From NCBI RefSeq assembly GCF_000429325.1, contig NZ_AUBQ01000018.1:1-64000 (forward strand): a stretch of DNA of 64,000 nucleotides, read 5' to 3'. Positions 4,873 through 38,179 of the stretch are shown one piece after another. Every line of letters begins with the position of its first letter. Position 1 is the stretch's first letter. The notes beneath the pieces are model-generated. The model had not been told where the DNA came from. It did no database searches and saw only the letters and a list, made by a program, of their open reading frames with translations. This stretch comes from Fundidesulfovibrio putealis DSM 16056. Lineage in GTDB: Bacteria > Desulfobacterota > Desulfovibrionia > Desulfovibrionales > Desulfovibrionaceae. The position numbers and the translations under genes are program-made.

Positions 4873-6342
4873 TCACCAACCGGTTAGATAGCGTTCAACA
4901 GGTGCATAGTCGTCAGTCAGGACAAGGGCTCCGTCCAGCTCCGGCGCGGGCTGGCGCTGGTCCAGGCGCGCCTGCGCGGACTCGTCCGGGCTTATCCAGG
5001 GGCGCGGCGCGGGGCTCTTGAAGCAGACCAGCAGGACGTTCTGCATGTCGGTCTTCAAGCCGGGGCTCCAGGTCCTGACGGGGTGTACCTGCGGGAAGAC
5101 CCGTGCGTATGTGGCGTAAAAGGATTTGTAAAGCCTGGAACGCGGGCCTTCCAGCGCGGTGATGGTGTTCACCAGCAGCACGCCGTCGTCGTCCAGTGCT
5201 GCGGCCAGACGCCGGGCGGTCTCCAGGGTGGCCAGATGGAAGGGGATGGACGCGTGGGAGTTGAACACGTCCACCACGATGGCGTCGTAGCGCCCGGTGT
5301 TGGCGTTCAGGAACGTCCGGGCGTCCTCATGGCGCACGTTCAGGCGAGGGTCGTCCGGCAGGAAGAAGTGCGCGCGGGCCAGTTCCGTGATGCCGGGATC
5401 GAGCTCCACCACGTCCACGCGCGCCTGCGGGTGTTTGCCCAGCACGTATTTCGGGAAGGCGTAGGCTCCCCCGCCAAGCACCAGCACCCGGCGCATGTCC
5501 GGCGCGAAGTGCGAGGCCAGGGTCAGATAGCGCGTGTAGTTGAGGGCCAGGGCCTGGGGATCGTCGGGGTAGACGCCGCCCTGCACGCCCTCCGGCCCGG
5601 TGCTCATGGCCAGCATGTCCCTGCCCGTGGTGAAATCGCGCGAGGGATAGACCAGCACCCGCTGATAGGGCGTGTCCACGTCGACGATCCCGCTGGCAGC
5701 CAACGAGCGCGCGTCGGAGGCCGCAAGCAGGTACAGGGCCACGAACACCCCGGCCAGCCCGGCCTTCAGGGGCCAGCTGCCTACGTGGCACAGGATGGAG
5801 GCCAGGGCCAGCACCCCGGCCATCAGGAAAAGGATGGCCGCGCTGCCGAACCAGGCGATCAGGAAGAAGCCGCCCGCGAAGGTGCCCACGATGCTGCCCA
5901 TCGTGGACAGGGCGTACAGGCGGCCCACGGTGCTGCCCGCGCGTTCGGGGTCGGTCATGCGGATGCGCGCGGCAAAGGGGGCCACCATGCCGAGCAGTGT
6001 GGCCGCCGGGGCGAAAAGCAGCAGCACCGCCTGGAGCGACCCGGCGTGCAGGCCAGCGCCGGACGCCTGGATCATCTCCACCACGAAGGAGCGGGAAAAG
6101 CCGATGAGCGCCGTGCAGACCGCTGCGCCGAGGATGATCAGGGAGAGGGCCTTGGGATTGGGATGGCGGTCGGCGAGGCGTCCGCCCCACCAGTACCCCA
6201 GGGACAGCGCGCCCAGGATGACGCCGATGATGCTGGTCCAGACCACGGTGGACGTGCCGAGAAACGGCGCGAGCACCCGCGTGGCCGCCAGCTCGATGAC
6301 CATGACCACCGCGCCGCACAAAAAGACCACCACTTCCAGCAT
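4873..6342 (-). CDS. Membrane protein fused to spermidine-synthase-like domain
   Basis: The product is 489 residues. The first ~210 residues contain about six or seven hydrophobic helices, starting with [20 protein letters not shown]. The C-terminal half has the aminopropyltransferase Rossmann fold: a glycine-rich loop [15 protein letters not shown] near residue 284, the acidic DVVELDPGI that would hold the nucleoside ribose, and [12 protein letters not shown] near residue 352 with the catalytic-type Asp. Fused proteins of this kind are common, but whether they make polyamines is largely untested. GAGGAGTTGCC lies before the ATG. It may form an operon with ychJ. Confidence 0.85.
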
Positions 6343-26697: not shown

Positions 26698-27756
26698 CTA
26701 TTTGACCACTTCGCCCGCCGCTTCGATGATTTCGTAGGGGATGTCCACCTCGAGGCGCTCGGCGATCCTGAGGTTTACCATGATCACCCCCCTTTCATTG
26801 ATGCGCATGGGCAGTCCGCCCGCCGCATCCCCCTTGAGCAGCACGCTCCTGGCCATGTTCGCGGCCAGGAACCCTTGTTCATGCCCAGCCTCCAGCACAC
26901 CGCAGAGCACGTCGGACAGGGCGTAGTCCGCGAACCCAAGGGTGGGCTTCGCGTTCACCGACCGCATCCACGCGGCTGCCTCCTCAGGCGTGACCACTTT
27001 CCCGGTGCGCTCGTCTCGAAGCGAATGGTAAATTCCAAAAGCGACGGCATCCACGCCTGACTGGTACGCGATGACGCGTCGTTGCCACTCCTGGAAGGAG
27101 CCGACCGAATCGACGTGCCTGAGTTCCAGGGCGAAGGGGCCGCCTTTGGCCTGGTCATCCTCCATGTCCTTGATGACGTAGCCTGAGGACTCGGACGCGT
27201 CGGTCAGAAAGGCGACGGTGCGGATGTTCGGCAAAAGCCTCTTGAGCAGTGCGAACCCCTCCCGGAAGTGCCAGCGCTCGCGCACGCCCGAGACGTTGGA
27301 GGCGGGAAAACCGTAGAGGGAAGGCGGCGCGTTGAGGCCGCAGAAGATGACCTGCGGCGAGGGTTTGCCCTTGAGCGACGGCGCGACCACGTACTCCTGG
27401 GCCACGTCGTCCACGGCGATCACCACATCCGGGGAGAAGTCGGCGATGCGCGCCAGGGCCTGTCTCGCGGCCATTTCCAACGAGGGTTTGTCCGGACGGC
27501 GTTTGGCGTCCATGTAGAAGTAGTCGTAGACCACGTCCAGATCGCGCAGAGACTCCAGGATTCCCTGGTTTATGTTCTGGGTCCAGATGTACTCGGGATT
27601 GTAGCTGTGCAGGATGAAGACGTGCCGGCGCGCCCCCAGGGCCGAGCCCGAAGCTGAAGACTCCGGGCGGCCAGCCTGACCGCCATCCCCCAGAGCCGCC
27701 TGCGCGGTCAGGAGAAACAGCACGGCCAGGGCGGCCAGGGATTGACGACGCTTCAT
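26698..27756 (-). CDS. Periplasmic substrate-binding protein linked to sensor kinase
   Basis: The product is about 352 residues with a signal peptide (SLAALAVLFLLTAQAALG). The mature part opens HVFILHSYNPEYIWTQNINQ, then shows DVVIAVDDVAQEYVV and VIFCGLNAPPSLYG, the pattern of the ABC_sub_bind type of periplasmic binding proteins. Proteins with the HSYN opening often sit beside two-component kinases and may present a ligand to them. Here the kinase gene follows 12 bases later and no ABC permease is nearby. The ATG at 27756 is chosen because it starts the signal peptide and has GAGG upstream. Confidence 0.8.
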   Translation of the reverse strand: MKRRQSLAALAVLFLLTAQAALGDGGQAGRPESSASGSALGARRHVFILHSYNPEYIWTQNINQGILESLRDLDVVYDYFYMDAKRRPDKPSLEMAARQALARIADFSPDVVIAVDDVAQEYVVAPSLKGKPSPQVIFCGLNAPPSLYGFPASNVSGVRERWHFREGFALLKRLLPNIRTVAFLTDASESSGYVIKDMEDDQAKGGPFALELRHVDSVGSFQEWQRRVIAYQSGVDAVAFGIYHSLRDERTGKVVTPEEAAAWMRSVNAKPTLGFADYALSDVLCGVLEAGHEQGFLAANMARSVLLKGDAAGGLPMRINERGVIMVNLRIAERLEVDIPYEIIEAAGEVVK

Positions 27757-27867
27757 GGAGCCTCGCAAACGTGGTGAAATCACCAAAACCGTCAGGCAAA
27801 ATGCACGACGGGACGTCAGGAGCGCATAACACGCAAGCGCTGCCAATGCACCAAGAACTACAGGGAA

Positions 27868-28782
27868 CTACGCCGTCTTAAGGCTCCCCCGGAAGCTCTC
27901 CAGGTCCGTGACGCCCATCTCGCGGGCCACCCCCGGAAGCTGCTCCACGAGCCTGAAGCTGAAGTCCGGGCGTATGAAGTTGGCAGTGCCCACCTGGACG
28001 GCGTGCGCGCCAGCCAGGATGAACTCCAGCACGTCCATGGCCGAGGCGATGCCGCCCATGCCGATCACCGGCACGGTCACGGCGCGGCTCACCTGCCACA
28101 CGCAGCGCAGCGCCACGGGTTTTATGGCCGGGCCGGAAAGGCCGCCCACCACGTTGGCCAGCCTGGGCTTTCGGGTGCGCACGTCCACGGCCATGCCGGT
28201 CAGGGTGTTGATGAGCGAGATGATGTCCGCCCCGGCGGCCTCAACGGCCTTGGCGATGGCCACGATGTCGGCCACGTTGGGCGAGAGCTTGACGATGACC
28301 GGCTTGTTCCCGGCGCGCTTCTTCACGGCCTCGGTGACCCTGGCCGCCTGGGCCGGGTCCTGCCCGAAGAGCACGCCGCCCTCCTTCACGTTGGGGCAGG
28401 AGATGTTCACTTCAAGCCCCGCCACGCCCTCCTCGGCGGCCAGCACCGAGGCAAGCTCGGCGAACTCGTCGGGGTCGCAGGCGTAGAGGTTGGCCAGGAT
28501 GGGGGTCTCTCGCCAGGGCAGGAAAGGGAGCTTGTCCTTCAGGAACGTCTCCACGCCGCAGTTCTGGAGCCCGATGGCGTTCAACATGCCGGAGGGGGTC
28601 TCGGCCACGCGGGGCATGGGGTTGCCCGCGCGGGGCTTCAGGGACAGGCCCTTGACCACGATGCCCCCCAGGGTGCGCAGGTCGCCGTAGGGGGTGAACT
28701 CCTGGCCGTAGCCGAAGGTTCCCGAGGCGGTCATGACCGGATTCTTGAGGGATAGCCCGGCAAGGGCGACGCGAAGGTCCAT
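27868..28782 (-). CDS. pyrD: Dihydroorotate dehydrogenase B, catalytic subunit
   Basis: The product is 304 residues, a TIM-barrel FMN enzyme of class 1B. Conserved parts are NPVMTASGTFGYG, NAIGLQNCGVE, LEVNISCPNVKEGG (with the catalytic Cys that marks class 1), VIVKLSPNVADI, and LINTLTGMAVD. With PyrK it oxidises dihydroorotate to orotate in pyrimidine synthesis using NAD. The ATG at 28782 has AGGAG six bases upstream. It lies nine bases after pyrK. Confidence 0.95.
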   Translation of the reverse strand: MDLRVALAGLSLKNPVMTASGTFGYGQEFTPYGDLRTLGGIVVKGLSLKPRAGNPMPRVAETPSGMLNAIGLQNCGVETFLKDKLPFLPWRETPILANLYACDPDEFAELASVLAAEEGVAGLEVNISCPNVKEGGVLFGQDPAQAARVTEAVKKRAGNKPVIVKLSPNVADIVAIAKAVEAAGADIISLINTLTGMAVDVRTRKPRLANVVGGLSGPAIKPVALRCVWQVSRAVTVPVIGMGGIASAMDVLEFILAGAHAVQVGTANFIRPDFSFRLVEQLPGVAREMGVTDLESFRGSLKTA

Positions 28783-28791
28783 CAAAGGCTC

Positions 28792-29577
28792 CTAGAGAGT
28801 TATTTCGTTCGACCAGAACACCGGCCCGCGCGTGCAGGTCTGCACCCGCTCCCCGGCCGGGGTCTCGGCCACGCAGCCCAGGCACGCGCCCACGCCGCAG
28901 GCCATGCGGTTCTCCAGGGAGATCTGGCAGCGCACGCCGTACTTTTCGGCGGCGGCCTTCACGGAGCGCAGAAATGGTGTGGGGCCGCAGGCCAGGGCCA
29001 GACCGCCCGCGTGCTCGGCCATGCGCTTCTCAAGAAGCTCCACGAAGCGCGGGATGTCCTCGGCGCTGCGATCCTGGAAGGACTCCGCGCCCACGGTCCG
29101 GGCCAGGTCCTCGTAGGGGTAGCAGGAGAGCGGCGGCCTGTGCCCGAACAGCAGCGACAGCTGGCCGGGGGTGGGGTGCACGGCGGCGTACTCCACGAAG
29201 GGCGCGATGCCGATGCCGCCCGCCAGCATCAGGGTGCGCACGCCCGGCTCCACGGCGAACCCGTGCCCGAGCGGCCCCCAGAGGGTCACCTTGTCGCCGG
29301 GCGAAAGCCTGGTCAGCGCCGAGGTGCCGCGTCCGGCCACCAGAAAGTTGAACACCAGCCTGTCGGGCAGCGCCCGGCAGATGGAAAGAGGCCTGGCCCA
29401 CAGGGGATCGAACCCCCAGGACGCGGGCCGCAGCATGGCGAACTGGCCGGGACGGGCCTTGGCCAGTCCGGGGTTTTCCAGTTCCAGGAGCCACAACCCG
29501 TGCTCGCGCCCTTCCGGGCCGTGGGGGGTAAGGCTCAAAACCGTGACGTCTTTGCAACGATTATAGGGGATGGGCAT
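28792..29577 (-). CDS. pyrK: Dihydroorotate dehydrogenase B, electron-transfer subunit
   Basis: The product is 261 residues with a ferredoxin-reductase fold. The FAD region includes PLSICRALPDRLVFNFL. A LMLAGGIGIAPFVEYA segment lies in the NAD-binding domain. The C-terminal [2Fe-2S] site is CGVGACLGCVAET followed by a fourth Cys in VQTCTRGPVF. It passes electrons from dihydroorotate via PyrD to NAD. It is the first gene of the pyrK-pyrD pair. Confidence 0.95.
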   Translation of the reverse strand: MPIPYNRCKDVTVLSLTPHGPEGREHGLWLLELENPGLAKARPGQFAMLRPASWGFDPLWARPLSICRALPDRLVFNFLVAGRGTSALTRLSPGDKVTLWGPLGHGFAVEPGVRTLMLAGGIGIAPFVEYAAVHPTPGQLSLLFGHRPPLSCYPYEDLARTVGAESFQDRSAEDIPRFVELLEKRMAEHAGGLALACGPTPFLRSVKAAAEKYGVRCQISLENRMACGVGACLGCVAETPAGERVQTCTRGPVFWSNEITL

Positions 29578-29818
29578 GGCTCGCTCCTGCCCTGCAAACT
29601 AGCCTCAACCCGGCAATTAGTAAATCTCTTCGCCGGGCTGAAGGCCCTCCTTGTCCTCCGGGGTCTTTACGGTTACTAAGAACCGGTCCAGAGTCCGGAA
29701 TACCCGGCCTTTCCGGGCCCAATCCCTTGACACATCCTGCCTCCCGCCGCATGTACATAGAATGTCGGCATAATCGTCCGAAGACGTAAGGGGGCGCTAC
29801 TTGGAGCGGAGAGCGTCG

Positions 29819-31012
29819 ATGAAGACACCTGAAGTGGGAGACAAGAACAAAATCTTCCACAAGGGACAGGTCATCTACAAAGAGGGCCAGTCCAGCAATG
29901 AAGCCTACATCATAAAGCAGGGCGCAATCGGGCTCTACCGCCTCTCCGGCAACAAGCGCATCAACCTGGGGATACTTCGTCCCGGACAGATCTTCGGGGA
30001 GATGGGCGTCATCAGCGAGGAGAAGCGCACCGCTTCCGCCGAGGCCCTGGAATACACCGAAGTCATCGTGCTGGACCAGAACCTCCTGCACACCCTGCTG
30101 CTCAAGAGCCCGCGCCCGGTCCAGATCATCACCTCCTACCTGGTGGAGCGCGTGCGCGCGCTGAACGCCCGCGTGGCGGACCGGCCCTGCTCCAACACCT
30201 TCGCCTCGGTGTGCAGCGTGATGCTCCTGGCCTGGCGCGCCGCCACCAAGTCCACGCCCAAGAGCGAGGCCACGCAGATCTCCACGGTGGAACTCTCCAA
30301 GACCATCAAGGAGATCCTCCTGGTGTCCCAGGTGGAGATCGACGAGATCTTCGAGAAGCTGGCCAAGGTCCACATCATCGACATCGTTGACGTCAAGGGC
30401 AGCTACTACCGCAAGGACCCGCTGCTTGGCACCATGAAGAAGTCCAGCGATTTCGTGAAGGAGCGCCTGCTCACGATCCCCGACGCCGACCGCTTTGCGC
30501 GCGTCTCCAAGAACATGGCCAAGGACCAGCAGGACGTGTGCGGCACCGACATGGAATTCATCGACCTCCATGAATTCGCCAAGGAAATCCAGGCCCAGCC
30601 CGGAGTTATCCTCAAGAAGCTGGCCTACGGCGAGATTCCCGAGACCTCCTTCTTCTTCCACAAGGCCTCCATCATGTCCTACGCCGCGCAGAAGGGACCC
30701 GAGTTCTTCCAGCGCGCCAAGCGCCCGCGCCTCAAGATCGAGGACCTGCAATCCGTGGACGACATCATCGCCGTGGACAACACCACCCTGGAGGAGGCCC
30801 TCTCCAAGCTGGGCTTCTACAAGGTCTCGGTGCTGGCGTCCCTGGCAGGTGAAGAGGCCCGCAACAAGATCTACGGCAACCTCTCCAAGAAGATCGCCGC
30901 AGTGGTCAAGGAGGAGGTCGCGAGGATGGACGGCCTGGACTCCGGCGAGGCTGCCGACATCGAAGAGGAACTGCTGACCATGATCAAAACCATGAAGGGG
31001 ATTGCCGGGTGA
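29819..31012 (+). CDS. cNMP-binding protein with FliG-like C-terminus, coupled to motA
   Basis: The product is 397 residues. Residues ~1-125 form a Crp-type cyclic-nucleotide-binding barrel (KGQVIYKEGQSSNEAYIIKQG; LRPGQIFGEMGVISEEKRTA). A helical region (~160-200) resembles a DNA-binding or linker segment. The last ~95 residues resemble the C-terminal torque-generating domain of FliG: IEDLQSVDDIIAVDNTTLEE, then EEARNKIYGNLSKKIAAVV and a closing acidic helix. In FliG the equivalent strings are DIVxLDDRxIQ and REKIxxNMSKRAA. Its stop overlaps the motA GTG start. This suggests a cytoplasmic protein that adjusts the stator or rotor in response to a nucleotide. The FliG likeness is my reading and needs a profile search. 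Confidence 0.75.
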   Translation: MKTPEVGDKNKIFHKGQVIYKEGQSSNEAYIIKQGAIGLYRLSGNKRINLGILRPGQIFGEMGVISEEKRTASAEALEYTEVIVLDQNLLHTLLLKSPRPVQIITSYLVERVRALNARVADRPCSNTFASVCSVMLLAWRAATKSTPKSEATQISTVELSKTIKEILLVSQVEIDEIFEKLAKVHIIDIVDVKGSYYRKDPLLGTMKKSSDFVKERLLTIPDADRFARVSKNMAKDQQDVCGTDMEFIDLHEFAKEIQAQPGVILKKLAYGEIPETSFFFHKASIMSYAAQKGPEFFQRAKRPRLKIEDLQSVDDIIAVDNTTLEEALSKLGFYKVSVLASLAGEEARNKIYGNLSKKIAAVVKEEVARMDGLDSGEAADIEEELLTMIKTMKGIAG

Positions 31013-31806
31013 ACGTCGCCACGGTCATCGGTTTCGTCGCGGGCGTCATCATCCTGGGCGCGGCCACGTATTTCGCCACGGACTCCGTGCGGGTGTTCAT
31101 CAACCTGCCGGGCCTGGCCATCGTGCTGGGCGGCACCCTGGCCTCCACCTTCATCTGCTTCCCCCTGAAGGAAGTGACGCGCGTGTTCACCATATTCCTC
31201 ACGGCCCTGAAACGCGAGGAACTGCCCATCGGCAACTACATCGAGTCCATCGTGCAGATCGCCCGCGAGGCCTCGGCGCGCGGCAAGGTGCACCTTGAGA
31301 GGGCGCTGCCCGGCATCGAGAACGAGTTTCTGCAGAACGCCCTGCAGATGCTGGTGGACGGCTATTCGCGCGACGAGATCAAGGAAATCCTGGAGACGCG
31401 CATCGAGCAGACCTACCAGCAGGAGATCTCCTCGGCGGGCATCTACCGCACCATGGCCAAGCTTTCGCCCGCCTACGGGCTCATCGGCACGCTCATCGGC
31501 TTCATCGGCCTGATGCAGGCCATGGGCGGCGGCGGGCTCGGAGCGCTTGGCCAGCACATGGCCGTGGCCCTGACCACCACCCTCTACGGAATCCTGCTCT
31601 CCAACCTGATATTTTTGCCCATCGCCGTGAAGGTGGAGAAGCGCATCGAGGAGCGGGTGCTGCTCATGTGCGTCATCCGCGACGGCGTGCTCTTCATCAA
31701 GGACAAGGCCCCCGCGCCCATTGTCTACGACAAGCTCAAGGCCTACCTGCCGCCCCGCCGCTGGGCGTCCATCGGCATCCGGCCCAGTGTGGCGTCCTCA
31801 AAATAA
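31009..31806 (+). CDS. motA: Flagellar motor stator protein MotA
   Basis: The product is 265 residues with the four membrane helices of MotA/PomA. The first two are VIGFVAGVIILGAATYFAT and LAIVLGGTLASTFICF, followed by a large cytoplasmic loop and helices 3-4 (AKLSPAYGLIGTLIGFIGLM; LYGILLSNLIFLPIAV). The conserved Pro is in KLSPAYG. Together with MotB it forms the ion-conducting stator. The start is GTG at 31009, overlapping the upstream stop (GTGA). A 28-bp palindrome includes its stop codon. Confidence 0.93.
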   Translation: MNVATVIGFVAGVIILGAATYFATDSVRVFINLPGLAIVLGGTLASTFICFPLKEVTRVFTIFLTALKREELPIGNYIESIVQIAREASARGKVHLERALPGIENEFLQNALQMLVDGYSRDEIKEILETRIEQTYQQEISSAGIYRTMAKLSPAYGLIGTLIGFIGLMQAMGGGGLGALGQHMAVALTTTLYGILLSNLIFLPIAVKVEKRIEERVLLMCVIRDGVLFIKDKAPAPIVYDKLKAYLPPRRWASIGIRPSVASSK

Positions 31807-31824
31807 ATACATATTTATTTTGAG
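31797..31824. repeat. Perfect palindrome across the motA stop codon
   Basis: CTCAAAATAAATA and TATTTATTTTGAG pair over 13 bases with a two-base loop, and the TAA of motA lies within the left arm. It separates motA from motB by a possible terminator or mRNA-processing structure. Confidence 0.75.
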
Positions 31825-31893
31825 AACAGTGAACGTATCTTTTAACCCCGAAAGACATCTTCATGTTCTTCAGGGGCGCGACTAGGCACCGCC

Positions 31894-32760
31894 ATGCTCA
31901 AGCTCTCGCAACTGCGCGGCAGACTCAAAGACGAAGACGAGGGGACGTGGTTCGTCTCGCTCGCGGACCTGCTGACCGTGTTGCTGTGCTTCTTCGTGCT
32001 GATGCTGTCGGTCTCCAGCCTGGATCAGGAGCGCTACAAGAAGGTGGCGCAGTCCATGGAAGACGCCATGAAGACCGAAAAAGCCAAGCGCGAGCAGGTT
32101 CAGGCCCAGGTACAGGCGCAGGGCAAGCGGCTGGGTTCCTCCCTGGCCGACGACCTCCCCACCGGCCCTGGCGGGCAGGTCTACCCCGTGCTCCCGCCGT
32201 CCCTGCCGCCGCAGGTCTACCAGAGCGCCCCCTCGGGACAGGCCGGGCTCACCGCCCAGACCGGCCCCGGTCTCGGCGACCAGTCCGGACAGGCCACGCG
32301 CCCCAAAACGCTCGAGGAAATCGGCGCGGAACTGGGCATGCGTTTCGCCCAGGACCCGGCGGGCGTGCAGATCGAAAAACGCGAGGGCGGCTTCGCCATC
32401 ACCCTCAAGGGCGCGGTGCTCTTCGACAAGGCCAGCGCGGAGCTTACCCCCTCCTCCATCCCCTACCTCGACTCCATCGCGGCCTCGCTTCGCAGCACGC
32501 CCTACAAAGTGACCGTGGAGGGCCACACCGACAACCTCCCGATACAGTCGCTCATCTATCCGTCCAACTGGGAGCTCTCCGGCGCGCGGGCCTCGCGGGT
32601 GGCCCGCTACCTGATCGACCACGGCGTGGCCAAGGACCGCCTGCACGTGGCCGGGTACGCCGACACCCGCCCCGTGGCCCCCAACGACTCCGCCCAGGGC
32701 CAGCCCCTGCCGGAAAACCAGGCCCGCAACCGCCGCGTGGTCATACTGATAAACCCTTGA
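31894..32760 (+). CDS. motB: Flagellar motor stator protein MotB
   Basis: The product is 288 residues. The single membrane helix WFVSLADLLTVLLCFFVLML carries the ion-binding Asp near residue 25. A Gln/Lys-rich linker and a Pro/Gly-rich stretch follow, then an OmpA-type peptidoglycan-binding domain (~165-285) with VTVEGHTDNLPI, NWELSGARASRVARYL and NRRVVILINP. It anchors the stator to the wall. Its stop overlaps the start of the next gene. Confidence 0.94.
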   Translation: MLKLSQLRGRLKDEDEGTWFVSLADLLTVLLCFFVLMLSVSSLDQERYKKVAQSMEDAMKTEKAKREQVQAQVQAQGKRLGSSLADDLPTGPGGQVYPVLPPSLPPQVYQSAPSGQAGLTAQTGPGLGDQSGQATRPKTLEEIGAELGMRFAQDPAGVQIEKREGGFAITLKGAVLFDKASAELTPSSIPYLDSIAASLRSTPYKVTVEGHTDNLPIQSLIYPSNWELSGARASRVARYLIDHGVAKDRLHVAGYADTRPVAPNDSAQGQPLPENQARNRRVVILINP

Positions 32761-33575
32761 CCAACGAAAGCGACACCCTGGACTGCGGCCGCGACGAGTC
32801 CTCCCATAAACTCAAGGGAATCTTCTCCTCTCCCGCCATGCCCGGTGAAGAACCCGACCCGGCCATCCCCAAGCGCTTCTGGTTCGCCAGGGAGCTGGGC
32901 GACGGTCTCATCAGCATCCAGCTGCTGGACGAGCACGGCCTGCCCACCCCCAAGCAGCACAGCATGCAGAAGGACCCCTTCCTGGAGAGCTTCACCCTGG
33001 AGCCGGACCTGGGCTACCGCCTGCTGACCCAGCGGGTGCTCACCGGCGACTACTTCCGCAAGCAAGGCATGAACCTCGAAGCCAAGATCGAGTACCAGAA
33101 GGTGCTGCGCATCGACGAGGAGAACATCCGGGGCAACTTCGGACTGGGCCTGACCTACCTGGCCCTCAACCAGCTCGAGAAAGGCCGCTACGCCTTCGAG
33201 AAGCTGGTCAGCATGGACGAGGCCTTCTCCGCCGAGCACAAGCACCTGTTCAACGACTTCGGCATCGCCATGCGCAAGAAGGGGCTGTTCGACGAAGCCC
33301 TGGCCTTCTACAACCGCGCCCGCACTCTCTGCTCCAACGACGAGAACCTGCTCCTGAACATCGCCCGCGCCTGGTATGAGAAAGGCGACATCGAGAACGC
33401 CTACCAGGGGCTTGCCGACTGCATCGAGCTCAATCCCGAGTTCCGCGAGGCCCTGGCCTTTCTGGCTTATCTGCGCAAGCACCGCATCTTCCCCAAGGAC
33501 AAGGACCTGCGCGCCCACTTCGACCGCGAGGCCCTGAAGCGCAGCGAACTGGGGTCACTCCTGGACGGGGCCTGA
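32757..33575 (+). CDS. TPR-repeat protein encoded after motB
   Basis: The product is about 272 residues. The N-terminal ~95 residues have no known domain (RFWFARELGDGLISIQLLDE). The rest is at least three tetratricopeptide repeats, for example NFGLGLTYLALNQLEKGRYA and NIARAWYEKGDIENAYQGL. TPR proteins serve as protein-binding scaffolds. The likely start is the TTG at 32757 overlapping the motB stop (TTGA). The first ATG is at 32838. Its place in the motAB transcript suggests a link with the motor, but no direct evidence exists. Confidence 0.8.
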   Translation: MTNESDTLDCGRDESSHKLKGIFSSPAMPGEEPDPAIPKRFWFARELGDGLISIQLLDEHGLPTPKQHSMQKDPFLESFTLEPDLGYRLLTQRVLTGDYFRKQGMNLEAKIEYQKVLRIDEENIRGNFGLGLTYLALNQLEKGRYAFEKLVSMDEAFSAEHKHLFNDFGIAMRKKGLFDEALAFYNRARTLCSNDENLLLNIARAWYEKGDIENAYQGLADCIELNPEFREALAFLAYLRKHRIFPKDKDLRAHFDREALKRSELGSLLDGA

Positions 33576-33581
33576 CACGGC

Positions 33582-33650
33582 GTTCTCAAAATACGTTCAT
33601 ACCTTGGGCCTAAGCCAAGGGAACCGTTCATTTGTTTGTGAGAATCACGA
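33582..33650 (+). repeat. Nested hairpin with GTTCTCA ends
   Basis: An outer pair (GTTCTCA with TGTGAGAA) encloses an inner perfect hairpin CCTTGG...CCAAGG. It starts seven bases after the TPR gene and probably ends the motility transcript. Confidence 0.55.
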
Positions 33651-33655
33651 GTGAC

Positions 33656-33724
33656 ATGCAAAATTTGCAGTAGGTACGCCTCCGGCGGCCAAAGAGCTGC
33701 GCCCTTTGGAATCCAAAAGTATCC
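33656..33724 (+). repeat. Dispersed intergenic repeat, copy 2
   Basis: Nearly the same as 18744-18812, with the palindrome TGCAAAATTTGCA at its left end and the CGCCTCCGGCGGCCAAA hairpin to its right. The following ~215 bases up to azoR show no gene I can support. Confidence 0.8.
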
Positions 33725-33941
33725 CAGCTTGCTACTGGATCACCCTTCTGTACGGGTGGCTGTGGGCGATAAGCTTTTCAAGAGTCTCAAATATTTCACA
33801 TGCGCTGCACGCGCGGCGCGACGTTTCTGAAAAGCATCGCACTGGAAAATCCCGAAAATTCTTGTTCCGGCTGCCTGTCCAGGCTATTTGATGAACATTG
33901 CCCCGCGTCCGGGGCGTTCCATCAGACGCCAAGGAGCCGCC

Positions 33942-34568
33942 ATGCCCGCCATTCTCTATATCAAGGCGTCCCCGAGGGGACCCCGCTCCCATTCCATCGC
34001 CGTGGCCGACGCCTTCCTGGAAGCCTACCAGGAGGCCAACCCCCAGTATCTGGTCACCACCCGCAACCTGTTCGAGGATGACCTGCCGCCCTTCGACGGT
34101 CCCACCTTGCAGGCCAAATACAACGTCCTTCACGGCCTGACCCACGATCCGGCCCAACAGCGGGCCTGGCAGCAGGTGAAGCGCTACGTGGACGAACTGA
34201 AGGACTGCGCCCGGATCGTCATGGCCGTACCCATGTGGAACTTCAGCCTGCCCTACCGGCTGAAACACTACATCGACTTGGTGGTGCAGCCGGGTTTGTC
34301 CTTCGGCGTGAACGAAGACGGCGCGTTCGGGCTCATCCCGGACAAACCCGTGTTCATCGCCTACGCCTCGGGCGGAGCCTACCCGCCCGGCAGCGGCGCG
34401 GCGGTCATGGACCACCAGAAGCCCTACCTGGAGATGATACTCGGGTACATGGGGCTGAAAGACGTGCGAAGCGTGCGCGTGGAGGCGACGCTCTCCAGCG
34501 ACGCCCAGGTGGAGGAGAGCCGCTCCGGAGCGATTGCCAAGGCGCGGGAGATGGCGAAGGATTTCTAA
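33942..34568 (+). CDS. azoR: FMN-dependent NADH-azoreductase family protein
   Basis: The product is 208 residues with a flavodoxin-like fold. It has the N-terminal phosphate loop LYIKASPRGPRSHSIAVADA, the FMN-contacting MAVPMWNFSLPYRLKHYID, and the FIAYASGGAYPPGSG segment. Enzymes of this family reduce quinones and azo dyes with two-electron transfer. AAGGAGCCGCC precedes the ATG at 33942; the longer upstream frame lacks this. A decayed second copy of residues ~120-157 lies at 35509-35640. A perfect hairpin terminator follows both. Confidence 0.9.
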   Translation: MPAILYIKASPRGPRSHSIAVADAFLEAYQEANPQYLVTTRNLFEDDLPPFDGPTLQAKYNVLHGLTHDPAQQRAWQQVKRYVDELKDCARIVMAVPMWNFSLPYRLKHYIDLVVQPGLSFGVNEDGAFGLIPDKPVFIAYASGGAYPPGSGAAVMDHQKPYLEMILGYMGLKDVRSVRVEATLSSDAQVEESRSGAIAKAREMAKDF

Positions 34569-34684
34569 TCCTGGCGGGTTGCCCAGGGATATTTGAGGAT
34601 ATCCTGGGGCGCGACGCAACGGCGTGTCGGCGTGGCGTTCCAGCCAGATCACTGCTCCTGGATGACCCGCAGTTTTCCTTGAAC

Positions 34685-34715
34685 ACGGGCCTCTTGAATA
34701 ATTCAAGAGGCCCGT
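34685..34715 (+). terminator. Terminator downstream of azoR
   Basis: ACGGGCCTCTTGAA pairs perfectly with TTCAAGAGGCCCGT (14 bp) around a TAA loop. The same stem recurs at 35660-35690 after the azoR remnant. Confidence 0.85.
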
Positions 34716-35237
34716 CTCGTTACTGACATTGCCTTTCAATTCGAATGGTTGATGCAAATACTGAAGCGAGATGCAGGGCTGCATGAACCGGGAGACAAGA
34801 GGGCATGACAGCATGCATCTGCCGTGATCCGGATTGCGCATGACGCACAAGACTGGCATCTTGTTTCAATAAGGCAATGCAGCAGAAAAACTCCGAGTTA
34901 TTTGCGTACAATTCCAACACATTGCCACACCACAAATTTTATTTAACATTTTATTAACCGCATTTTCCTTCATACAGCTATGCAACACCATCTTGATGAA
35001 GTATATACAGGAGCACATCCGAACATGCATCTGTCACAGACAGAGAGAGCGCAGAATATTGCGGTGTCGTATCAGGTGCTTGCTGGCGGGAGCTGAAATT
35101 ACGAATCCGGCGGCCTTGGCGGAGGAGTCGGTTGTTTCAGCCAGCAACAGGCACTTTGAGACGTACGCCAATCCTGGCGCGGAAGCGGCAGGATCTGCAG
35201 CCAGCCGCACAGAACATACGACCCAAGGAGCTATCCC
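34716..35237. other. Long intergenic region, no confident gene
   Basis: The stretch is mostly AT-rich to about 34990. From 35024 an ATG preceded by AGGAG opens a 23-codon frame (MHLSQTERAQNIAVSYQVL) that ends near 35095. The reading then continues sensibly one frame over (EITNPAALAEESVVSASNRH) to 35241. This could be a frameshifted small gene, but I cannot confirm it. Confidence 0.35.
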
Positions 35238-35414
35238 ATGAGTTCAAAAAACAACGACAAGTCCGGCGGAAACAAGAAGCAGGCCAAGGGCAACATGCAG
35301 GAAGCCTCAAGGGGGTCAGGCAAAGACTCCAAGACGGAAGAAGCGGGCAGTACTGGCGCCGCCATGGGCAGCAGGGAAAAGAAGCTGGCCAAACTGGCCC
35401 AGAGGAAGAAATAG
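35238..35414 (+). CDS. Small Lys-rich, probably disordered protein
   Basis: The product is 58 residues, very hydrophilic, and rich in Lys, Gly, Ser and Gln (SGGNKKQAKGNMQEASRGSG; a KKLAKLAQRKK end). AAGGAG lies seven bases before the ATG, a strong initiation signal. The composition recalls small stress-related disordered proteins such as CsbD, without clear homology. It lies between azoR and the azoR remnant. Function is unknown. Confidence 0.6.
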   Translation: MSSKNNDKSGGNKKQAKGNMQEASRGSGKDSKTEEAGSTGAAMGSREKKLAKLAQRKK

Positions 35415-35508
35415 CCAACGGCGATACGGGGGCGATTCTTCAAGCGTGCCAGCTATCCTGAGCCCCCGGGAGTCGAGCAGAGCAACCGTGGACGGACCTC
35501 GGGGTCTG

Positions 35509-35640
35509 GCAAGTCGGGGCGAATGAGGACGGCTTCCCCGGACTCGTCCAGGACAAGCCCGTGTTCATCGCCTACGCCTCGGCGAGTCGTACCCGACGGG
35601 AAGCGGCGAGACGGTCATTGACCGCGACACGTCGATGTTC
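35509..35640 (+). pseudogene. azoR remnant (frameshifted fragment)
   Basis: The translated segment NEDGFPGLVQDKPVFIAYAS matches NEDGAFGLIPDKPVFIAYAS of azoR. After one missing base the match continues in the next frame as ESYPTGSGETVIDRD against GAYPPGSGAAVMDHQ. Only about 40 codons of the gene remain. The fragment is followed by the same GGGCCTCTTGA hairpin as the intact gene, so the whole 3' end was once duplicated. Confidence 0.85.
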
Positions 35641-35655
35641 CCCTGCGAGCTTCGC

Positions 35656-35694
35656 AAAGACGGGCCTCTTGAGTTCTTCAAGAGGCCCGTTTGC
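35656..35694 (+). terminator. Terminator downstream of azoR remnant
   Basis: ACGGGCCTCTTGA pairs with TCAAGAGGCCCGT (13 bp) around a five-base loop, with an outer GCAA/TTGC pair. It is a copy of the azoR terminator. The 400 bases that follow are AT-rich and contain no gene I can support. Confidence 0.8.
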
Positions 35695-36105
35695 ATTCGA
35701 CATCCTTGAACAGCACAAGGGATAAACACGACGCGCACCTGATACGGCAAGGCGAGATGGGCGAGGGAAGGCAAGGCTGCCGAGACCTGCTGGCAACCGC
35801 ATTCCAGCGTACATATACGACCGACAAGCTGACGCAAAACAAATACAAATCAATGCCCAAAATAACAACTCGCCAAACGCTACTAACAAATACACCCAAA
35901 CTTAACATTGCCTTGCGCCAACAAGCAACACTCTGCATACATATTTACTACAGATGAACAAAAAACAATCTTAATTACTTCCTAGTTACCTTCTGACAAC
36001 ACCAAGACTCACACGAGTCGACCACTGTTACAACTGCATGTCGTAAAAATTTACACCACAAAGTACACGACTACAATTTTCTCAACAATTTTAATGCACA
36101 AAAGC

Positions 36106-37078: not shown

Positions 37079-38179
37079 CTAAATATCCTGCATGCTGTCC
37101 AGCGTCCCGGTTGACGGCGGCCCGCCGGGCATCCCCGCCCCTTTTGGGGGCCTGAACTCCCTGTTGAACAGCTTCAGGTGCAGCTTCAGCCCCTCGGCGA
37201 AATTCGCGTTGATCCACAGGGCTTTCAAAAGCGCCTCCTGCGCGCCCTTCACGTCTCCCATGAAGAACTGGGCCTTGGCCATGTTGAAGTGGATGTTCTC
37301 GTCGTCTGGCGTCAGCTCCAGCGCCTGCCGGTAGGCGTGCAGCGCGCCGGGCAGGTCCCCGGCCTTTCGGAGCTTCACTCCGAGCGAGTTGAATGGGTTG
37401 GGGCTGGCGGCGTCGTATTTGAGCACCTCGATGAACAGCTCCTTGGTCTCCTCCAGCCGGTTGAAGTGGGCGAAGGTCTCTGCAGCCATCTGCAGGTAGG
37501 TCTTGTAGCCCTCCAGGTCGCCCTTGCCCTTGTAGGCCTCGGCCAGCCCCTTGTAGGCCTCCGCGAACAGCTCGTTTATCTTCACGGCCTTCTTGAAGGC
37601 GATGATGGCCTGGCCGTACTTCATCTTCACCAGGTACTTGCAGCCCATGTCGTAGTACTTCTGGGCCTGATTGTCCTCGCTGACCAGCTCCTCGAAGGTC
37701 TCGATGGCCTCGTCGAAGCGGCCCGCAGCCAGCAGCCTGCGGCCTTCGTTCAACTGGGCCTGCTCGATCTCCACCAGCCTGTCGATCTTCAGGGCGCGCA
37801 GCATGTGCCGCTGAAAGGTCTCCATGGAATAGGGGCGCAGCACGTAGCCGTCCACCCCGGCGGCGATGGCCTCCAGCACGCGTTCCTTCTGGCCCTCCTG
37901 GGTCACCATGACCACGGGGGTGTCCTTCAGGTTCATGTTCAGGCGCAGAAGCTTGAGGAATTTAAAGCCGTCCATGTCCGTGAGCTGCGAGTCCAGCACC
38001 ACGAGGTCGACCTCCTGCATCCCCAGAAAGTCGATGGCCTCGGACCCGGAGGTGAACTGCTTGATCATGCCCGCCTTGAGCTGCTTCAGGCACTGGCGGT
38101 CGCGGCGGACGTGTTCCTCCAGGCCGGAAACGACGGCCACCACATCCAGTCTGACGGGGGAAGAGATCGGTTCCGGCAC
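37079..38179 (-). CDS. Response-regulator receiver fused to TPR repeats
   Basis: The product is 366 residues. The first ~125 form a CheY-like receiver with the phosphorylation Asp in DLVVLDSQLTDMDGF and a Lys-region variant YVLRPYS, where Arg replaces the usual Lys. The rest is TPR repeats (YYDMGCKYLVKMKYGQAIIA; AYKGLAEAYKGKGDLEGYKT; NMAKAQFFMGDVKGAQEAL) and a Pro/Gly-rich tail. It likely controls protein-protein contacts rather than DNA. The start is GTG at 38179 with GGAG upstream. It faces the PEP-CTERM gene tail to tail. Confidence 0.88.
   Translation of the reverse strand: MPEPISSPVRLDVVAVVSGLEEHVRRDRQCLKQLKAGMIKQFTSGSEAIDFLGMQEVDLVVLDSQLTDMDGFKFLKLLRLNMNLKDTPVVMVTQEGQKERVLEAIAAGVDGYVLRPYSMETFQRHMLRALKIDRLVEIEQAQLNEGRRLLAAGRFDEAIETFEELVSEDNQAQKYYDMGCKYLVKMKYGQAIIAFKKAVKINELFAEAYKGLAEAYKGKGDLEGYKTYLQMAAETFAHFNRLEETKELFIEVLKYDAASPNPFNSLGVKLRKAGDLPGALHAYRQALELTPDDENIHFNMAKAQFFMGDVKGAQEALLKALWINANFAEGLKLHLKLFNREFRPPKGAGMPGGPPSTGTLDSMQDI

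Follow-up and report, generated by a model that had tools for sequence, protein, structure and literature searches.

To our knowledge, cyclic di-GMP (c-di-GMP) is the only second messenger known to control motor rotation directly, and it does so through PilZ-type proteins. YcgR carries a PilZ domain; MotI, which has the PilZ fold, uncouples stator and rotor, and EpsE has a glycosyltransferase-like fold. A 2026 review on the suppression of motility describes EpsE as uncoupling stator and rotor, and cyclic AMP (cAMP) as acting on transcription via CRP (PMC13432727). On the side of the motor, a structural study reports that FliG_C, when fused to MotA, places its torque helix in the cavity between two MotA monomers and docks there through the charged ends of this helix (PMC11302681). 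A FliG_C domain can thus hold on to a stator without being part of the rotor. Two further studies report that the stator contacts of FliG, R281 and D288/D289, face E98 and R90 of MotA (PMC11528121, PMC12505986). Finally, a study of Bd2879, a crystallised putative transcription factor, assigns residues 1–118 to a nucleotide-binding domain, 125–228 to a first helix-turn-helix domain (HTH1) and 237–335 to a second (HTH2) (PMC12750041). Here, we describe a gene that combines elements of these systems in a 64,000-nucleotide stretch of Fundidesulfovibrio putealis DSM 16056 (NZ_AUBQ01000018.1, positions 1 to 64,000; hereafter "the window"), which lies on C11, a contig of the 4.7 Mb genome. Its product, which we call CFG, consists of a cyclic nucleoside monophosphate (cNMP)-binding barrel, two winged-helix-like domains and a FliG_C domain, and the gene directly precedes motA.

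The CFG gene occupies positions 29819–31012 of the + strand and encodes 397 amino acids, and its torque domain lies at 30746–30994 (+ strand; residues 310–392). Sequence comparisons and predicted structures together confirm that CFG ends in a FliG_C domain. Residues 312–392 matched Pfam FliG_C at 26.7 bits (E 6.8e-6; curated cut-off 23.3), and in a scan of the whole genome, in which CFG scored 28.8 bits, the only other FliG_C match was the true FliG (142.5 bits). When the PDB was searched with CFG using phmmer, Thermotoga maritima FliG was found at 7.8e-5 and 1e-4. The initial annotation had recognised this likeness from a "VDD" stretch and an "R.KI..N.SK" pattern; these are residues 313–315 and 348–357, which lie inside the Pfam match, and the PDB matches and the predicted fold likewise show that they are not a product of chance. 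CFG could be aligned with the FliG of its own genome over 83 residues without a gap and with 15 identities, and in this alignment the torque-helix charges K358, E365 and E366 correspond to R281, D288 and D289. Pfam detected no FliG_M in CFG and, for FliG_N, just an echo of 0.11 over the C-domain, and the hinge motif MFXF of FliG is replaced by LQSV. CFG is not filed as FliG because FliG_N and FliG_M are missing, and because these mounting domains are absent it cannot join the C ring in the way that FliG does; it is not a rotor part.

The predicted fold agreed with the sequence matches. Residues 289–397 modelled alone gave a predicted local distance difference test score (pLDDT) of 86, and the first 21 Foldseek rows for this model were FliG. 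The first 16 of these were entries holding the C domain, among them 8ucs_H, in which FliG is bound to MotAB; they had a probability of 1.00 and E-values between 3e-3 and 0.4, so that 0.001 was not reached. With VIA, rows 1–14 were the FliG C domain at Z 11.0–13.7, the best being 4fhr_B (Z 13.7, root-mean-square deviation (rmsd) 1.9 Å, 87 aligned residues), and rows 15–19 were the middle or N domain of FliG; the best MgtE row reached Z 6.3 across 52 residues. The model of the full-length protein (pLDDT 78.7, predicted template modelling score (pTM) 0.33) contains the barrel, the winged-helix-like parts and the helical C-terminus, and its domain packing is unreliable because of the pTM of 0.33. 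Within it, residues 309–396 were superimposed on residues 233–319 of Salmonella FliG in the C ring (8wiw_3) with Z 14.1, rmsd 1.9 and 87 aligned residues, whereas the VIA list for the whole protein is dominated by cNMP barrels and says nothing on other folds. The C-terminal model is therefore FliG-C, the outcome on which the initial annotation had made its proposal depend.

The Crp-type nucleotide-binding barrel that had been proposed upstream of motA was recovered by Pfam as a cyclic nucleotide-binding domain (PF00027, E 2.8e-20) at 29855–30103 of the + strand (residues 13–95). Conservation was assessed in an alignment of 33 of 48 homologues, comprising 25 of the 34 that are linked to motAB and 8 of the 14 others, one of which (L056) sits 3' of motB. 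In the phosphate-binding cassette (residues 56–71, + strand; conserved G56, G60, E61 and R70), G56, G60 and E61 were present in 33/33 homologues and R70 in 30/33. With the Pfam barrel match and the conserved G-E ... R cassette, CFG fits the description of a cyclic nucleotide receptor, and its putative ligand is cAMP or cyclic GMP (cGMP). The winged-helix-like part lies at 30194–30694 (+ strand) and, on the secondary structure of the full-length model, comprises two domains of about residues 126–222 and 223–292, with borders that we set ourselves; in the distant relative L121, HTH_17 matched at E 0.014, under its cut-off. The initial annotation had placed about 200 residues between the barrel and the FliG-like domain; the stretch of about residues 126–292 is no plain linker, as it is modelled as winged-helix-like and follows the domain order of Bd2879.

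The relationship between CFG and the stator genes was examined in 119 genomes of the family. A full-length CFG homologue was found in 36 of these genomes (best match ≥ 36% identity), and a MotA at least 58% identical to that of the window was found in exactly the same 36. Comparison of the coordinates indicated that the linked MotA lies directly 3' of CFG on the same strand in 36/36 genomes, so the gene order that the initial annotation had suggested checking is conserved. No member of the linked MotA clade without CFG was found among the 119 family genomes, and the next best MotA among the matches listed (E up to 1e-40) was 37% identical. A 37th genome (G014) had a divergent CFG homologue (34%) without a MotA of the linked clade. 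The 36 CFG genomes span 18 genera, and at least five genera contain both genomes with CFG and genomes without it. CFG and one motA clade are strictly co-inherited and tightly coupled.

This coupling extends to the arrangement of the genes. In the window, motA (31009–31806, + strand; GTG start; Pfam MotA_ExbB, 2.8e-24) shares four bases (GTGA) with the CFG stop and is followed by motB (31894–32760, + strand; MotB plug 2.6e-15 and OmpA domain 1.7e-20 in Pfam) and by a gene for a tetratricopeptide repeat (TPR) protein (32757–33575, + strand; TTG start; TPR_2 9.7e-13), which again overlaps motB by four bases; the coordinates and order given in the initial annotation were right. By their MotA_ExbB, MotB plug and OmpA domains, the products of the linked motA and motB carry the Pfam domains of a stator. 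Among 40 loci examined (L033–L072), CFG-motA was present in 33, with a motB match in 32 of those (not L045). The four-base overlap occurred in 28 of the 34 linked loci, window included, and the remaining junctions were four of the TAGTG type, a three-base gap (L052) and a wider gap (L051). A homologue of the TPR protein was found 3' of motB in 11 of the 33 other linked loci; the loci with the TPR protein in the operon are those of closer relatives. In a sample of 199 genomes of the order, with a CFG threshold of 1e-30, CFG was detected in 47 and FliG_C in 175, and all 47 also appear in the FliG_C table (by eye). Class III cyclase genes were present in 35 of the 36 CFG genomes and in 37 of the 83 others, as counts uncorrected for kinship or genome size.

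We also compared the residues that would meet at a contact between the two proteins. At position 358, K was found in 23/25 linked homologues and 7/8 others; position 366 was D or E in 24/25 linked (E in 24) and 7/8 others, and position 365 was D or E in 22/25 linked and 5/8 others. In the linked MotA, the rotor-facing loop is changed. The equivalent of R90 is S in 26, A in 6, G in 1 and T in 1 of 34 linked MotAs and R in 0/34, whereas 21/21 further MotAs compared within the bacterial family keep R; these 21 are the MotA of contig C5 of the same genome and 20 hand-picked from the family MotA match list, and the MotA-like genes of contig C3, being under the blastp cut-off, lie outside them. Position 92 is R or K in 30/34 linked MotAs, as against E (20) or Q (1) in the 21 others, and the equivalent of E98 is retained in all 55 (34 linked and 21 others). 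In the MotA of the window, Ser89 is the R90 equivalent and Glu97 the E98 equivalent.

The genome carries six MotA_ExbB genes, of which three are on contig C3 and one encodes the MotA beside MotB on C5. At the latter locus (L117 5998–7878, G000:C5), a PilZ-domain gene overlaps motB of this other motAB pair by four bases. This genome thus seems to provide two of its stators with a different nucleotide receptor each. The idea that a PilZ gene is a general partner of other motAB pairs was dropped, as 0/10 other motAB loci gave a match at blastp 1e-4.

Based on these results, we infer that CFG mediates an action of a cyclic nucleotide on the motor, and we give slightly better than even chances to the interpretation that CFG is a dummy rotor, that is, a soluble cyclic-nucleotide receptor made together with, and acting on, the MotAB of its own operon. 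CFG is probably dimeric. Its FliG_C domain would dock between two neighbouring MotA cytoplasmic domains, in the manner of the FliG torque domain, and nucleotide at the barrel would alter how this domain is presented. As a consequence, the operon's own stator might be held idle, released or passed to the real rotor; as the direction of the effect, we favour restraint of the stator. The overall interpretation of the initial annotation, in which a cyclic nucleotide could act on the motor directly, is supported, and its analogy to the logic of YcgR, built from different parts, would apply.

Several observations weigh against this interpretation. The NCBI model of full-length FliG gives CFG 13.9 bits against a cut-off of 226.7, and VIA itself warns that helical folds can score Z near 13 through a common arrangement. 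K264 and R297 of FliG are not conserved in CFG, which has S341 and D374 there. The torque charges are also retained in unlinked copies and are thus no specific mark of the motAB link. Furthermore, the linked MotA lacks R90, which rules out one of the two known salt bridges in its Escherichia coli form, and the winged-helix part of CFG may bind DNA. The link of the homologues with motility genes, which the initial annotation had considered essential, is strict with motA in the 36 of 119 genomes, but 7 of the 40 loci (L072 and six with tandem pairs, all six from a single genus) have no MotA or MotB match in the flanks checked, which were about 5 kb each, cut to about 1.5 kb on one side in L072 by the end of the contig.

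Four other explanations were weighed against the dummy-rotor interpretation. In one of them, which we consider unlikely, this stator lineage has parted from FliG, and soluble, cyclic-nucleotide-gated CFG is the main partner of this MotAB. The loss of R90 and the flipped charge at position 92 would then mark the parting; cAMP or cGMP would switch the ion flow or torque of this MotAB via its dedicated dummy rotor, which could make it a clutched auxiliary flagellar stator or a gated motor elsewhere in the cell. Somewhat less doubtful, although still improbable in our view, is that CFG, with its two HTH domains, is a CRP-like regulator of transcription whose targets are its own operon or flagellar genes, FliG_C just sensing free stators or serving as a dimer or partner interface. 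Its first ~300 residues are laid out like those of Bd2879 (PMC12750041). The family profile A3 (positions 7–190) matches residues 2–186 of the Bd2879 chain (9sfa_A) at E 1.2e-13, a match that is largely barrel, and also matches whole CRP chains, some of which extend into the winged-helix region in the comparison with the full-length model, with large rmsd. The tandem CFG copies unlinked to mot genes and a 294-residue relative in a Syntrophobacterales metagenome-assembled genome (MAG; L090), which is without FliG_C and in whose open reading frame (ORF) list no mot gene was recognised by eye, also fit a regulator. The NCBI CRP model matches residues 14–160 at 31.6 bits, far under its cut-off of 266. 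However, CFG has no Pfam match to the HTH_Crp families at E up to 1, and the second helix of HTH1, the putative recognition helix, is acidic in most of the 33 rows compared (median net charge −2, range −3 to +1); together, these results speak against plain CRP-type DNA binding. A scan near the CFG gene, which is a weak test, found 0 sigma-70-like promoter sites, and a transcription factor would have no need of a strict, overlapping linkage with one MotA clade. A simple CRP regulator is retained as a rival.

Strict co-inheritance and translational coupling with motA, and the TPR protein in the same operon at 11/33 loci, would suit a cyclic-nucleotide-controlled assembly or stability factor (chaperone) for the stator, comparable in logic to FlgX of Campylobacter and with no role in running motors. 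A chaperone would have no obvious need of a torque domain with charged ends, and we regard this explanation as quite improbable. FliG_C and MgtE_N have a common ARM-like fold, and the resemblance to FliG could in principle be this helical arrangement alone, with a link to motAB unrelated to the rotor. The modest Pfam score of 26.7 bits, the 15/83 identities and the lack of a Foldseek row at E 0.001 point that way; the leading ranks of FliG in Foldseek (21 rows) and VIA (19 rows), with the C domain first and well above MgtE, and the 46–47 bits of FliG_C in the distant relatives L121 and L124 point the other way. On the Foldseek and VIA rankings, a look-alike by chance or by ARM fold was rejected; this explanation is largely refuted and highly improbable.

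The surroundings of the genes were also inspected. CFG starts with ATG, and an alternative TTG at 29801 would add 6 residues. Its closest named relatives are in a Desulfovibrionaceae MAG (97%) and Fundidesulfovibrio agrisoli (73%). An upstream alignment of seven loci of the own genus showed one short block, TTAGTAAAT, in 6/7, near a divergent pyrimidine-type gene, and scattered conservation over the rest of the region; Rfam gave zero matches in window positions 27000–36000. A 28-base inverted repeat with 13-base arms lies at the motA end (31797–31824), and no second copy with ≤ 3 mismatches was found within the window. The motA-motB spacing is 87 bases in the window and 9 in the close relative L033, whose MotA is 6 residues shorter; the longer MotA and wider gap in the window look like a small insertion. 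Convergent to the CFG-mot module is a gene for a response regulator-TPR protein (37079–38179, − strand). Homologues of it lie near the module in 11 of 33 linked loci, where they score well, and in a twelfth (L053), where the score is weak, and in L072 one directly follows the divergent CFG copy. The first CFG-motA-motB set of L056 is accompanied by a second CFG-like gene (4956–6137), located 3' of motB in the same orientation. In L066–L071, CFG paralogues form tandem pairs with no mot genes nearby; in L066, L068 and L071, a gene for a small membrane protein and a divergent nucleotidyltransferase-like gene precede the pair (by eye), which is followed by a gene of the biotin/lipoate-ligase family (Pfam, L066).

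Beyond the family, 279 of 395 genomes of the phylum matched the profile at 1e-10. Among the matches listed, four covered the whole profile, all from the own family, and the rest were matches to the barrel that, in some cases, ran on into the first section of the winged-helix part. In another family, three genomes encode proteins of 404–416 residues with the same layout as CFG (L121, L122 and L124); FliG_C scored 46–47 bits in the two that were scanned, L121 and L124, and hhalign gave E 1.3e-6 for FliG_C of L121. All three adjoin chemotaxis-type genes (with Pfam support in L121), and the neighbours in L121, on the opposite strand, are a response-regulator-GGDEF gene, cheB and a cheA-type gene. 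A degenerate FliG_C suspected by eye in L123 is not claimed (hhalign E 0.081, probability 0.7%).

Our literature searches, which did not reach most subscription papers, found no published description of the CFG architecture. CFG is possibly a new cyclic-nucleotide route to the bacterial motor, here in sulfate-reducing bacteria. If the proposed interpretation is true, it would be a cyclic-mononucleotide route to motor control that works by rotor mimicry, and it would account for the separate handling of a single stator set where several are present. CFG and its MotA would also form a natural FliG_C-MotA pair in which torque transfer could be studied structurally, and the loss of R90 makes this rotor-stator contact testable via natural variation. 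Compared with known systems, CFG resembles YcgR/FlgZ in being a second-messenger receptor, and YcgR is reported to bind both MotA and FliG (PMC10140304). However, the ligand of YcgR is c-di-GMP, whereas CFG joins a cNMP barrel to the rotor's own torque domain and has no PilZ match in Pfam at E up to 1. The clutches EpsE and MotI of Bacillus subtilis are likewise soluble proteins, which uncouple the stator from the rotor, but their folds are unrelated to CFG. Bd2879 of Bdellovibrio bacteriovorus (PDB 9SFA) has, like CFG, a cNMP barrel and then two winged helix-turn-helix domains (PMC12750041), but its C-terminus is a tail, presumed to be disordered, that bears a zinc-finger motif, where CFG ends in FliG_C. 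The cassette has D/Q and T/S in Bd2879 and E/M and R/S in Bd1971, and that of CFG, with E61-M62 and R70, is Bd1971-like. Finally, CFG shares with FliG the fold of the C-terminal torque domain and the charged ends of the torque helix, but differs in lacking FliG_N and FliG_M, the mounts on FliF and FliM, and the MFXF hinge, and in occurring in a genome that has a separate, true FliG.

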